The notes under the pieces were generated by a model. It was given only the letters and a program-made list of their open reading frames with translations. It ran no database searches and was not told the DNA's origin. A stretch of 64,000 nucleotides of DNA from Dehalococcoides mccartyi (lineage in GTDB: Bacteria; Chloroflexota; Dehalococcoidia; Dehalococcoidales; Dehalococcoidaceae), in NCBI RefSeq assembly GCF_001889305.1, contig NZ_CP013074.1, positions 682,001 through 746,000 of the forward strand. Direction: 5' to 3'. Position numbers and translations under genes: made by a program. Shown here piece by piece: positions 30,191 to 35,568 of the stretch (within the stretch, counting starts at the first letter, position 1; each line of letters begins with the position of its first letter).

Positions 30191-31333
30191 TTATTGTTTT
30201 ACATCCGGATGCTTGGTTTCCATTTCCTGCCGCATTTGCAGGTATTCTATCAGGCTGGTACGGGAAATAATGCCTACCAGTTTGCCATCTGATAAAACCG
30301 GCAGCTGGTTAATATCTTTGGACTGCAGTATATTTATCACATTGCCAAGATGTTCTTCAGGGTTCACCGTCTTAAGTTTTTCAAAAGGGGTCATTACCTG
30401 CCGTACTGATGTCTGGCCAAGTTTATCTGTCGGTATTTTTTTAATATCACTCAGGCTTATAAGGCCTGTAAGCTGCCCATTCTCAAATACAGGGAGCGCC
30501 CTTTGGTTAAGCGGCAATATATATTCGTGAAGTGTCTGATAGAGTGTTTTATCCGGGTCAATAGTTTTAAATTCACGCCGCATCACTCTGCTTACGTTTA
30601 CTGCGCTGAGTATTTCCGAAATAACTGTTTGCTGGTATGATCCTTGAGCCGTTGTAGCCATAAACCAGCCTATAAGTGCCAGCCAGAGACCGCTTATACC
30701 TATGCCCAGGAAAGCGGCGGTAATACCTCCAAAGATTAGCAGGTAAGCAAAGACCAGCCCTACTCTAGCTGAAATGAGAGTGGCTTTTCTGAGATTCTTT
30801 AAGGTATTCCAAATAATAGCTCTGAGTATCCGCCCCCCGTCCAGAGGGAAACCGGGGGTAAGATTGAAAATGGCCAGCATGGCGTTTATCTGGGCTAGAT
30901 ATAAAAATACTCCGCTTGTCAGAGTAATATTGAGAGCGGCGAAGACAGACTGAAATAGCCAGAATACCAGTGCCAGTATAATGCTGACTGCCGGACCGGA
31001 GATAGCTATACGGAATTCGGCTCCGGGATTATCCGGTTCTTTGGTCAGGTTTGAAACCCCGCCAAAAATAAACAAAACTATGCTTTTAACCGGTATGCCC
31101 TGTCTTATGGCTATCACAGAGTGCCCCAGTTCATGGGCTAAAACCGAGCCGAAAAGGAGCAGGCAGCTTAGAACCCCCAATGCCCAACCGGTAAACAGGC
31201 TTATTTGGTTATCTATTGCAGGATAATAAGCCACAGCCAAAGACCAGCTTAGCAGAGCGAAGATAATGAGCCACGAAGCATGAATGCCTATTTCTATGCC
31301 TAGAATCCGCCCAAGCTTGAAAGAGGATTTCAT
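30191..31333 (-). CDS. Site-2 protease (M50) with C-terminal CBS pair
   Basis: A 380-residue intramembrane zinc metalloprotease. Six hydrophobic helices in the first 220 residues carry AHELGHSV (HExxH, near residue 66) and LDGGRILRA with a preceding FNLTPGFP, completing the metal site. Residues about 245-375 form two CBS domains, which usually bind adenine nucleotides. Such proteins cleave membrane-embedded substrates, often anti-sigma factors; the substrate here is unknown. It follows the GreA fusion by 29 bases. A second copy of the same architecture is at 34418-35533. Confidence 0.9.
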   Translation of the reverse strand: MKSSFKLGRILGIEIGIHASWLIIFALLSWSLAVAYYPAIDNQISLFTGWALGVLSCLLLFGSVLAHELGHSVIAIRQGIPVKSIVLFIFGGVSNLTKEPDNPGAEFRIAISGPAVSIILALVFWLFQSVFAALNITLTSGVFLYLAQINAMLAIFNLTPGFPLDGGRILRAIIWNTLKNLRKATLISARVGLVFAYLLIFGGITAAFLGIGISGLWLALIGWFMATTAQGSYQQTVISEILSAVNVSRVMRREFKTIDPDKTLYQTLHEYILPLNQRALPVFENGQLTGLISLSDIKKIPTDKLGQTSVRQVMTPFEKLKTVNPEEHLGNVINILQSKDINQLPVLSDGKLVGIISRTSLIEYLQMRQEMETKHPDVKQ

Positions 31334-31362: not shown

Positions 31363-32160
31363 TTAAAAGCTTATATCTTCTATTATATACTGTAAAGTAC
31401 CGGAGGGTACTTCTATTTCTACTTTATCGCCCTTACACCGGTTAAAAAGAGCCTTGCCAATGGGTGATGAGGCAGATATTTTGCCCTTTAGGGGTTCTAT
31501 TTCTTTAGGGCTCACCAAAGTATAAACGCACTGGTCCCCGTTTTTCAGGTCACGGAGTTTTACGGTATTGCCCATATTTACTTTGGATGTGTTATTATCG
31601 GTATATTCGCTGACTTCGGCATATTTTAGTTCGTGTTCTATTTCTTTTATGCGCCCTTCAATCTGGCCGCGTTGTTCCTTGGCGGCGTGGTAAGGGGCAT
31701 TTTCACGCATATCTTTATCCATGGCAGCCAAACGCATTTCTTCAATAACTTCAATCCGTTTGCCTTTCAGGGTGCTCAGTTCATCTTCCAGTTTTTTATA
31801 ACCGCTTGCGGTCATAGGTATCTTTTCAACGGCAGTTTGGCTGGTGCGGGCAGCAGATTTTCGTGAAGCCAGCTTTTTAATCTTGATATGTGAAGAAAGA
31901 TTGTAATCCACCCAACCCTGTTCATTCAGGTATGTCAGGAAAGCCCGTACAGACTGTAGTTTGACGGATACTTCCTTGTCAGAAGAAGAGATGCATTCCG
32001 GGTAGCGGGATACCTCAATGGCAGTCATACGGCAAACAAGCTTGTCCTTTCCGCACCAGCGGGTAAAATGGACCAGCGAATTCTGGTGAATTTTCTTATT
32101 GCTGTTATCGTTAAGATATTGATTTAATGCTTCGTCAAGGTTAATGCCGCTGTTTTGCAT
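31363..32160 (-). CDS. GreA-type transcript cleavage factor fused to a tyrosine-recombinase-like N-terminal domain
   Basis: A 265-residue protein. Residues about 115-265 are a complete GreA: coiled coil MTASGYKKLEDEL...DMRENAPYHAAKEQ with the acidic tip D150/E153, then the C-terminal FKBP-like domain ending SSPIGKALFNRCKGDKVEI. GreA inserts the coil into RNA polymerase to rescue backtracked complexes. Residues 1-100 instead resemble the SAM-like core-binding domain of XerC/D recombinases: SLVHFTRW, MTAIEVSRY, SVRAFLTYLNEQGWV. No catalytic recombinase domain follows. The combination suggests a DNA-binding GreA; that is inference. Lies between the flavoprotein and the site-2 protease in one operon. 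Confidence 0.85.
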   Translation of the reverse strand: MQNSGINLDEALNQYLNDNSNKKIHQNSLVHFTRWCGKDKLVCRMTAIEVSRYPECISSSDKEVSVKLQSVRAFLTYLNEQGWVDYNLSSHIKIKKLASRKSAARTSQTAVEKIPMTASGYKKLEDELSTLKGKRIEVIEEMRLAAMDKDMRENAPYHAAKEQRGQIEGRIKEIEHELKYAEVSEYTDNNTSKVNMGNTVKLRDLKNGDQCVYTLVSPKEIEPLKGKISASSPIGKALFNRCKGDKVEIEVPSGTLQYIIEDISF

Positions 32161-32207: not shown

Positions 32208-33329
32208 CTAGCGGGTTTTTAAGAGGTGGGCAAATGCTTTGCCATGCCAGTCAAACCCCAGGTGACTCTTTGCAGCCATCTTCTCAATCATACCATTTGC
32301 GGCACACTTTTTAAAAATTTGTTCCAGCAGGCGGTCATCAAGCCCCGCGTATATCCTGCTGAGGAGTTTGCCAATGTATAGCTCTGATCCTATAAGAGCT
32401 TTCCAGCTTTTTTCATATTCGGCCATATCTGCTTTGGAAAGTTTATTGGTTTTTATTTTTTTATCCAGACAAGCCACCGCCAAATCAGCACACAGCAAAC
32501 CGAAGTATATCCCTCCCCCAGTGGTTGGTTTTAACTGACCGGCAAAATCACCCACCGCCAGTACTCTATCTCCGAAACTGGCGGAAAGATTGCCTGCCGG
32601 AATCGGGCGGCAGGCATATTTTATATTTCTATCGGGTATCAGCCCTTGTTTGTATATAGTATTATGTAAAATACTCCAGCATTCATTTGGGTTTTTACGG
32701 GTCAACAACCCCATTTTAGCTGCATGATCATTTATGGGACTGAGCCAACCGAAATATCCCTGAGATATAGCTTTACCGGTAAAGAGTGACAATGCGGTTG
32801 GTATGGAGGTGTCAACTTCCCCCTGCAAGCCGAAGGCAAAGTGCTTTATTTCTCCTAGTCCGGCTGCCCAGCTGAGTTCAGTATTATATCCTGCGGCCAG
32901 AACAGCGGCTTTGGCAAAGAAAGTTTGCCCTCCTTTGGTGGTTATGCAGATACCATTACCTGTGTTTTCAAGGCCGTTTACCTGGCAGCCGAAATTTATC
33001 TGCACCCCGCAGTTTACGGCCTGTTTTAGTAAACCAGCCTGAAATCCGCCCCTATCCAGCATTATGGCCTGGGGTGTATTCCGCTTAAGCAGTAACTTTC
33101 GCCCGTAAGGTGAATATACGGTAGCTTCCGAAAATATATTTTGTACGTGTTCGGCCTCAAAGCCATATTTTGCGGCACACTCTGTGCTGATTAAACCCGT
33201 ACAGCAAATTTGTTTTACCATCTCCGGCCTTTTTTCCAGCAGCCTTACTTCGTAGCCGCGCTGAGCCAGACACTTGGCGGTGTATATTCCTACCGGCCCC
33301 GCCCCTATTACCAATATATCCGTATTCAT
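32208..33329 (-). CDS. FAD-dependent oxidoreductase, geranylgeranyl reductase family
   Basis: About 373 residues. FAD-binding motif GAGPVGIYTAKCLAQRG near residue 8, and the second flavin motif DRVLAVGDFAGQLKPTTGGGI near residue 275, with the PTTGGG stretch shared with geranylgeranyl reductases and digeranylgeranylglycerophospholipid reductases. These reduce isoprenoid double bonds in lipids or quinone side chains. In a bacterium this may act on polyprenols or quinones; the substrate is unknown. Start is ATG 33329 (MNTDILVIGAG); upstream in-frame codons are not supported. Confidence 0.84.
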   Translation of the reverse strand: MNTDILVIGAGPVGIYTAKCLAQRGYEVRLLEKRPEMVKQICCTGLISTECAAKYGFEAEHVQNIFSEATVYSPYGRKLLLKRNTPQAIMLDRGGFQAGLLKQAVNCGVQINFGCQVNGLENTGNGICITTKGGQTFFAKAAVLAAGYNTELSWAAGLGEIKHFAFGLQGEVDTSIPTALSLFTGKAISQGYFGWLSPINDHAAKMGLLTRKNPNECWSILHNTIYKQGLIPDRNIKYACRPIPAGNLSASFGDRVLAVGDFAGQLKPTTGGGIYFGLLCADLAVACLDKKIKTNKLSKADMAEYEKSWKALIGSELYIGKLLSRIYAGLDDRLLEQIFKKCAANGMIEKMAAKSHLGFDWHGKAFAHLLKTR

Positions 33330-33459
33330 AAAATATATTATCCGTTTTTCAGGTAAAAAAGACAATTGGCAATAATAACACAAAAGAGTATTGTGCTAAA
33401 TCTAAAATAACGTTATAATAAAGGACAAAAGTATAAAATTATGCTTGACAGAGGGGTAT

Positions 33460-33696
33460 ATGATAGTAACCGTAACCAGTGTGGTTATTGCTACTGCAAC
33501 AGGTACGGCGGCAGTTATAGGTGGTGTTTCGCTGGCCTCTCTGATAGCTTTTTTGATTGCCCGGGAGATGGCACTGGCCAGAAAATCCGCTTTTTCCATA
33601 AGGGTAGCCCGCTACCTGGGAATCAGTATTTTCCCCTTGTTTCTGGTGATGGGTGTTATTGTGATTTCCCGTATAATGGAAACGCTAGCCCAGTAA
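33460..33696 (+). CDS. Small two-helix membrane protein
   Basis: A 78-residue protein starting at ATG 33460 with AGAGGGG upstream; an in-frame TTG at 33445 is less likely. Two hydrophobic segments (about 1-30 and 52-72) flank a basic amphipathic stretch, RKSAFSIRVARYLG. No family is recognised. It is divergent from the flavoprotein and its end overlaps the convergent CPBP gene by 12 bases. Confidence 0.6.
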   Translation: MIVTVTSVVIATATGTAAVIGGVSLASLIAFLIAREMALARKSAFSIRVARYLGISIFPLFLVMGVIVISRIMETLAQ

Positions 33697-34425
33697 CAGC
33701 GGCGCTACCGCAAAGAGTATAGTATTTGTTATTCCGTGTGCCAGGGTAACTCCCAGTATAGAGCCTGTCTTTTTGACCAGATAACCGAATATGAGTGCCA
33801 CTCCGAAGACAAAAACGATATCAGTTATGGAAAGAAACCCAATATGGAGTATGGCAAATATTAGGCTGATGTAGATTATTCCCCTTGCCTCGAATGAATC
33901 CAGTGCTGCTTTCTGTAAAACTCCTCTGAATATAAGTTCCTCAACAAATCCGGTTGTGATTAGCAGTATCAGACCGGGCAATACCAGGCTGCTCCAGCTT
34001 AAGGTTTCTATGATGGCTTCAGGTTTTAAAATAGCGTATTCGGCAAAACCCAGCCCTATTCCTGTAAGGCCTATCAGTATCTGTATCGGTATTTTCCCCC
34101 AGTTGAGGCCTATATCTTTAAAATTGTATTCAAGTGTTCTGGCTACTATAACAGTTCCAATCAGCAAAGGCAGGTAGATAACGGGATACCACCATATCTG
34201 GGGAATATCAGAAAGGGGCATAGCCAGGCTGATTATGCGTATCAAGGCTACCAATGAAAGTGACAGAATAAGCCGGTCAGGATGAAAGCGGTTGGTTTTG
34301 GCAACCCGAAAGATGATGCTGAATAAAAGTAATATATATATGCCAAGCCCGAAAAGCGGTTGGCAGGCTACAGTGACAATTTCAGCTGCGGTGATTATCA
34401 GCAGGTAAACCAAGGCACTAAGCAT
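33685..34425 (-). CDS. CPBP-family intramembrane metalloprotease
   Basis: A 246-residue membrane protein with about eight helices. Catalytic signature EELIFRG (EExxxR) near residue 165, then FAILHIGF and LAHGITN, the conserved His motifs of the CAAX-protease/bacteriocin-processing family. These cleave membrane-bound peptides or prenylated proteins; the substrate is unknown. Start ATG 34425 overlaps the end of the site-2 protease by 8 bases, so the two proteases are translated together. Confidence 0.87.
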   Translation of the reverse strand: MLSALVYLLIITAAEIVTVACQPLFGLGIYILLLFSIIFRVAKTNRFHPDRLILSLSLVALIRIISLAMPLSDIPQIWWYPVIYLPLLIGTVIVARTLEYNFKDIGLNWGKIPIQILIGLTGIGLGFAEYAILKPEAIIETLSWSSLVLPGLILLITTGFVEELIFRGVLQKAALDSFEARGIIYISLIFAILHIGFLSITDIVFVFGVALIFGYLVKKTGSILGVTLAHGITNTILFAVAPLLLG

Positions 34426-35533
34426 CCGTAATGCCTTTTACCGGTAATTTATTCATATAGGCTATCAGGCTGTCCAGAGTTATAAAGCCGGATTGGATAT
34501 TTTTACCTTCCAACCTGACTATCTCTATCTTGTCCTCATTCATGCGGCGGGCAATATCCAGAGCATTTTCCTCCGGCGGTATGACTGGTATTTGGCTGAC
34601 AGGAGTATACAGTTCAGCTAAGGGCTTGGATTTAAGATTGTCCGCATTTTTCAGGTTGTGCCGGTTTATTATACCTGCCAGCCCGTTTTCATCTTCAACC
34701 AGTATATATGCCCCGTTTGGTGTTTGGGTCAGATAATCTCCGAAAATCTGGGTGGATTTAGCTTTGGGTATATTAAAGTCAATTACTTCCATAGGTGTGA
34801 CTCTTTTTAACACCTGCTGCAGGGTATACTGGCGGAAACTGGTTCGGGCGGTATCAGATAAATACCAGCCTAGCAATCCCAGCCAGACGCCGGACAACCA
34901 GTCTTGGGTGCGTATCACGATAAATATTCCGGCCGCTATAAAAAAATAACCGAATATCTGGCCTGCTATGGTTGAAATGCGGGTGGATTTGGTCAGGTCT
35001 TTGGTTTGCTGCCAGAAGGCTGCCCGGAGAATGCGCCCTCCATCCAGGGGGAAGCCGGGAATCAGGTTAAATACCGCCAGTATCAGGTTAATCTGAGCCA
35101 GCCAGTAGTTCATTACGGCCAGTTCAGGGCTTTGTCCGTTAAGGTTTATATACAGAACATAAAATATTCCTGCCAGTCCCAAACTTGAGGCCGGTCCGGC
35201 CAGTGCCATTTTAAATTCGCTTCCGGCGGTTTCTGCTTCTTCACTCATATTAGCAGCCCCGCCGAAAATAAAAAGGGTGATGCTTTTTACTTTCATACCG
35301 TTAGCTCTGCCGATTAGGCTGTGAGCAAGTTCATGGACGATTACCGATGCAAAAAACAGCAGGCTGGTAGTAATTCCCATAATCCAGAGCTTGAGATCGT
35401 CGGCATTATCCAAGGTGTCAGGAAATACCTGGGTAGCCAGAAAAACGGATACCAGCCCGAATATGATAAACCAGCCGTAATGAAGGCGGAACTGGATGCC
35501 GAAAAGCTTGCCTATATTTATGCCCTGTTCCAT
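34418..35533 (-). CDS. Second site-2 protease (M50) with CBS-like C-terminus
   Basis: About 371 residues, the same layout as the gene at 30191-31333: HExxH in VHELAHSL near residue 65, FNLIPGFPLDGGRILRA near residue 150, and a C-terminal region with two CBS-like units. Identity between the copies is visible through the membrane half but low in the CBS part. Start ATG 35533 (MEQGINIGKLFGIQ) is used; four upstream codons are possible. It follows thiC by 35 bases and overlaps the CPBP gene, so thiC, this gene and CPBP may share a transcript. Confidence 0.88.
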   Translation of the reverse strand: MEQGINIGKLFGIQFRLHYGWFIIFGLVSVFLATQVFPDTLDNADDLKLWIMGITTSLLFFASVIVHELAHSLIGRANGMKVKSITLFIFGGAANMSEEAETAGSEFKMALAGPASSLGLAGIFYVLYINLNGQSPELAVMNYWLAQINLILAVFNLIPGFPLDGGRILRAAFWQQTKDLTKSTRISTIAGQIFGYFFIAAGIFIVIRTQDWLSGVWLGLLGWYLSDTARTSFRQYTLQQVLKRVTPMEVIDFNIPKAKSTQIFGDYLTQTPNGAYILVEDENGLAGIINRHNLKNADNLKSKPLAELYTPVSQIPVIPPEENALDIARRMNEDKIEIVRLEGKNIQSGFITLDSLIAYMNKLPVKGITDA

Positions 35534-35568
35534 ATCACCTGACAATCTTTAAAAAAATATATCTTATG

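Follow-up and report, generated by a model that had tools for sequence, protein, structure and literature searches.

Why would a factor that rescues RNA polymerase carry part of a recombinase? The question is raised by a gene on the minus strand (31363..32160) of a 64,000-nucleotide stretch of the Dehalococcoides mccartyi genome (hereafter the window, in which all coordinates are given). The gene begins with ATG and encodes a protein of 265 amino acids. Gre factors are commonly regarded as a uniform class built of two domains. A sequence-only reading had taken this product for a full GreA with an acidic tip (D150/E153), preceded by about 100 residues resembling the core-binding domain of XerC/D but lacking the recombinase catalytic domain, and had suggested that such a fusion could tether transcript cleavage to specific DNA, or to sites of recombination or repair. 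Here we describe the architecture, distribution, and likely role of this protein, which is GreA joined to a tyrosine-recombinase core-binding (CB) domain without the catalytic domain.

Domain organization of the fusion protein

All features described here lie on the minus strand. Residues 113-265 together with the stop codon (31363..31824) make up a complete GreA, consisting of the coiled coil and the C-terminal FKBP-like domain. In Pfam searches, residues 114-183 matched GreA_GreB_N (E 1.8e-20) and residues 191-264 matched the GreA_GreB C-terminal family (E 4.6e-23), and the fusion scored above the cut-off of the NCBIfam GreA equivalog NF001263; orthologues with the same architecture further supported the gene as a whole. 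Structural alignment with VIA gave a Z of 17.2 between the GreA part and E. coli GreA (1grj). The tip of the coiled coil, D150-M-R-E153 (31702..31713), contains the catalytic acidic pair, with D150 encoded by GAT at 31711-31713 and E153 by GAA at 31702-31704. These two residues occupy the place of D41/E44 in E. coli and were invariant in 30 homologues. A full GreA and its tip were thus present as the sequence-only reading had described them.

The region in front of GreA, which that reading had treated as one block of up to 110 residues, is recombinase-like as proposed, but its boundaries had to be redrawn: the CB (SAM-like) domain proper covers residues 1-96 (31873..32160) and is followed by a flexible linker at residues 97-112 (31825..31872), which is rich in Lys/Arg across the homologues, as judged by residue frequencies. 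In the AlphaFold model the pLDDT was <50 over residues 97-110 and the full-length pTM was 0.42, so that the relative placement of the CB and GreA halves is not fixed. The integrase catalytic domain (R-K-H-R-H...Tyr) is absent from the 265 amino acids, the remainder of which is GreA; the protein is therefore homologous to one recombinase domain only and is not a recombinase. No effector domain was matched in the 265 residues by Pfam.

The N-terminal domain as a recombinase core-binding domain

When residues 1-114 were compared alone with Pfam, no match above noise was obtained. The 30 homologues gave scattered weak matches to Phage_int_SAM_4/5/1 (best E 0.0055-0.013), on which we did not rely because the unrelated families TcaA_2nd and Psu appeared at similar E values. 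A degenerate-pattern search derived from the N-domain alignment alone found too little conservation. The kinship, although invisible to single-sequence Pfam searches, was clear between profiles: with hhalign, 30 orthologous N-domains aligned to 24 Xer CB domains of the same class over 96 columns with a probability of 96.9% (E 1.9e-10). Controls stayed far lower: at most 3.6% in 200 column-shuffled alignments, 0.2% after reversal of the alignment, and 0.1% when the GreA part was compared with Xer. When the N-domain profile was run over 99 genomes, the fusion ranked first and the weak second matches fell in ORFs some 300-390 aa long; at least five of these coincided with Xer genes that PF02899 had identified independently.

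The predicted structure agreed with the profile comparison. Modelled by AlphaFold with a mean pLDDT of 79, the domain contains four helices, at residues 8-18, 26-36, 47-56, and 64-80, and a Foldseek search with this model returned tyrosine-recombinase domains down to about rank 26. VIA-align gave a Z of 12.6 over 93 residues with 3nrw, a phage integrase N-domain, followed by lambda integrase (Z 11) and XerA (Z 8.1), while the full-length model gave Z values of 12.1 with 3nrw and 9.4 with XerD; 3nrw was also the top match in a sequence search of the PDB (E 0.0017). Because a Z below about 13 between helical domains can reflect a common arrangement, the CB assignment rests on fold and profile together. 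On both counts the resemblance to recombinases seen in the sequence proved genuine.

Distribution, origin, and genomic context

Full-length relatives were present in all 11 genomes of the family. In the class, for which 99 genomes of at least 85% completeness were sampled, the N-domain profile matched in 89, nearly always directly before GreA, and of the Chloroflexota genomes sampled outside the class at least 39 also carried the fusion. Of 80 loci retrieved in a scan of genome contigs, almost all bore the label Dehalococcoidia or Chloroflexi. No relative was found in viral contigs, and comparison of the N-domain with phage records gave a single partial match at chance level. In a maximum-likelihood tree built on the GreA domain alone (121 rows), all 48 fusions were set apart, together with two stand-alone GreAs from genomes G358 and G359, by a branch supported at 96/97. 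This is most simply explained by one fusion event and at least two losses of the CB domain; next to the G358 and G359 genes no trace of it was detected.

The gene is flanked upstream by an FAD-dependent oxidoreductase (32208..33383, 47 bp from the fusion start) and downstream by an M50 site-2-type protease with CBS domains (30191..31333, 29 bp from the stop), both on the minus strand. These neighbours had been recognized correctly but regarded as an unusual setting for greA. The oxidoreductase, however, is a conserved neighbour, lying upstream in 53 of the 80 related loci (directly in 51, mostly within 100 bp); the neighbourhood is normal for the lineage and thus says little about function. 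Local capture of the domain from a neighbouring xer gene, hinted at by xer genes close to the fusion in G263 and G157, was rejected as a general pattern, since no xer gene was found within up to 6 kb of any of the 80 loci. A promoter and terminator scan at the locus gave promoter counts near chance. Further upstream, the window contains a second M50 protease with CBS domains (34418-35545), a paralogue of the first about 3 kb away, and a CAAX-type protease (33685-34425) between the two.

Stand-alone GreA proteins and the catalytic tip

No second GreA N-domain or C-domain was found in the genome (1.52 Mb, one contig), which settles the question, left by the sequence-only reading, of whether a stand-alone greA exists alongside. 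Dehalococcoides and Dehalogenimonas have no full Gre factor other than the fusion, which in the class was the sole GreA_N match in 23 of the 89 N-domain-positive genomes. The D and E of the tip were kept in 128/128 fusions. By contrast, among 55 fusion-bearing class genomes with a stand-alone GreA, none (0/55) kept both catalytic acids in that protein: the tips had become GGTENN, STQNN, GTSQND, and similar, with three retaining D-x-x-D. Such tip-less loci of Dehalococcoidia (for example L150-L162 and L200-L235) keep the Gre fold, and their class-wide product is a possible Gfh1-like competitor. Outside the class, 20 of 21 stand-alone GreAs from fusion-bearing genomes had an altered tip, mostly E to D, a milder change that may not necessarily abolish activity. 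Six stand-alone GreAs sampled from fusion-less Chloroflexota genomes carried D and E in five cases and E and E in one.

Among fusion-less genomes of the class, G358 and G359 carry an intact tip in a domain-less member of the fusion clade and G378 carries one in a divergent protein, the exception being three genomes of family f88 (G306, G350, and G368), in which neither a fusion nor an intact tip was detected. These three have only stand-alone GreAs (L189, L192, and L197) with tips D..D or G..E, and G306 has two greA copies in tandem. As a rule, then, a canonical tip is found in no Gre factor but the fusion. Since the fusion is the sole Gre factor in the family and the only tip-intact one in nearly all relatives examined, it must serve general transcription; judged by this gene content, it is the general (housekeeping) cleavage factor of the lineage and not a site-specific accessory.

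Selective constraint and the translation start

Between this genome and its two congeners, non-synonymous and synonymous changes in residues 1-96 numbered 1 and 27 in one comparison and 7 and 31 in the other, corresponding to dN/dS values of 0.006 and 0.036, while the GreA part gave higher values (0.061 and 0.064; range 0.06-0.09). These values exclude a frameshift join and are a strong argument against the region being untranslated. A frameshift or assembly error that had joined two genes, which would have undone the sequence-only reading, was accordingly rejected: besides the low dN/dS, orthologues in 11/11 family genomes have the two parts in the same frame.

An internal ATG (31813..31815), encoding Met116, is the apparent start in the published numbering of GreA from strain CBDB1. 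This protein (cbdbA743) was reported to be acetylated at K17 (PMC7918482), which equals K132 of the fusion when counted from Met116. Because K17 fits the fusion only if Met116 is residue 1, the CBDB1 gene start appears to be annotated at this internal codon, leaving out the N-domain. The same numbering would suit an active product that is an ordinary 150-aa GreA starting at Met116, the upstream 115 codons being a relic or the source of an occasional long isoform. We consider this very improbable, given the single amino-acid change against 27 synonymous ones between species, the retention of the N-domain across the class, and the lack of Met at that position in most homologues, including Dehalogenimonas. 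That the domain was captured once and has since been carried as a neutral relic without a function of its own is hardly credible: its loss in at least two lineages would fit such a history, but its dN/dS lies well under that of GreA and it persists in 89/99 class genomes.

Proposed role of the core-binding domain

In GreA proteins elsewhere, the coiled coil lies in the secondary channel of RNA polymerase, where the acidic pair makes the polymerase cleave backtracked RNA, and the N-terminus, found at the coiled-coil base, stays outside the channel. By family knowledge, the GreA half of the fusion would likewise bind RNA polymerase and insert its coiled coil into the secondary channel, with D150/E153 inducing the polymerase to cleave backtracked RNA. 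Because the GreA N-terminus lies outside the channel, the CB domain would then hang by its flexible basic linker on the polymerase surface.

The N-domain is basic (pI 9.4), as it is in 28/30 members. Lys or Arg occupied the positions of R34, K67, R72, K93, K95, and K96 in 91-100% of 105 sequences and position 80 in 84% of them, the latter being Glu in the protein studied here. In XerH, helices of the N-terminal domain are inserted into the DNA major groove, and most base-specific contacts come from this domain (PMC5241119). By profile alignment, K67 and R72 fall in the equivalent of the last XerH major-groove helix. We infer that the CB domain would grip nearby duplex DNA, for which downstream DNA is the nearest candidate, with a low sequence preference that follows from service in general transcription. 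Such a grip would hold the factor to the template or the elongation complex and thereby raise its effective concentration at stalled polymerases. We favour, as the probable reading, a GreA that uses its conserved basic CB domain to hold DNA close to RNA polymerase, with low sequence specificity. Xer proteins additionally depend on their catalytic domain, absent here, to grip DNA. Because the helix-B motif of Xer (S..T...Y) is not conserved in the fusion, any DNA contacts would differ from those of Xer. G358 and G359 lost the CB domain yet kept the tip, indicating that the domain is not indispensable everywhere.

The main rival to a DNA tether is docking on protein. The CB fold could be a protein-binding module that docks with another factor or with a surface of RNA polymerase specific to the lineage, leaving DNA untouched and acting on affinity or regulation. 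The very strong constraint alongside a changed helix-B DNA motif would be consistent with this, as would the conserved aromatics W35, Y53, and W83, and the conserved basic residues could equally face acidic surfaces of RNA polymerase instead of DNA. We nevertheless regard protein docking as rather unlikely, since the conserved polar set is mostly Lys/Arg, also in the helix that corresponds to the groove-binding one of Xer, and the domain is basic in nearly all members. Recognition of particular DNA sites (dif-like, repair, or recombination), to which transcript cleavage would be brought, draws on the base-specific contacts of the XerH domain but seems improbable for the only general Gre factor, which has no xer genes as neighbours and lacks the catalytic half required for a complete DNA clamp; the tethering to specific sites suggested from the sequence thus found no support. 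A split Gre system in Chloroflexota is conceivable, and we propose it tentatively: a DNA-anchored active factor needing template contact and a tip-less, Gfh1-like stand-alone competitor.

The fusion is of real interest because it concerns the only intact transcript-cleavage factor of the clade. In a major clade, the one cleavage factor that is as a rule intact has carried a recombinase domain since one ancient fusion; in Dehalococcoides this domain is constrained more tightly than GreA itself, and the stand-alone paralogues are without the catalytic residues. It also opens a direct test of whether DNA contact can control or boost the rescue of backtracked RNA polymerase. We found no description of GreA with CB domains or of such Chloroflexi fusions in the openly accessible literature searched, where absence is no proof. 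Single-sequence Pfam and NCBIfam searches of the protein overlook the domain, and at least one reference annotation (CBDB1) appears to place the gene start beyond it; this may explain why it is seemingly undescribed.

Comparison with known systems

The N-domain of the fusion shares a four-helix fold with the CB domains of Xer proteins and integrases (PF02899, PF13495, PF13102; 3nrw), as well as K/R positions in the last long helix and an N before the basic tail. Unlike XerC/XerD and phage integrases, the fusion has neither the catalytic domain nor the Xer helix-B motif, and it has new conserved motifs, F-V-R-W-Y-G and N-L-x-x-H-L-K-x-K-K. Another Xer sequence joined to a gene-expression factor is chain 14 of PDB 9i5v, named RaiA (401 aa), which comprises a complete Xer-type recombinase (residues 7-301) and then presumably RaiA.

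GreA also stands at the C-terminus of a longer protein in NF004969/PRK06330 ('transcript cleavage factor/unknown domain fusion') and NF011309/PRK14720. These profiles, with lengths of 718 and 906, have different and far longer N-terminal parts and match the fusion over its GreA part only. The Gre domain is likewise reused in the multidomain TPR-GreA/B-C-PIN conflict proteins, but these combine only the GreA/B C-domain with effectors, whereas the fusion contains the whole GreA and has a housekeeping role (PMC8195603). Dehalogenimonas-type genomes (L186:74-2449, G007; also G005:C1:1076496) encode a long helicase-like ORF ending in a GreA/B C-domain, preceded in L186:74-2449 by AAA_11/AAA_12 and an MTES_1575 nuclease domain; the ORF of G007/G005 resembles the conflict proteins reusing GreA/B-C.

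Ordinary GreA (PF03449+PF01272; NF001263; 1GRJ) and the fusion have in common both Gre domains, the coiled coil, and the D..EN tip. The fusion differs in its extra CB domain and linker of about 112 N-terminal residues and in the details of its tip, which reads DKDxREN with a Pro after ENA (ENAPY). Gfh1 has acidic tip residues and is yet inhibitory (PMC4598747); Gfh1 and other cleavage-incompetent Gre paralogues offer a useful yardstick for the stand-alone GreA without a catalytic tip that accompanies the fusion in most of the class, whereas the fusion itself, in contrast to a Gfh1-type anti-cleavage factor, retains the canonical D..EN tip.
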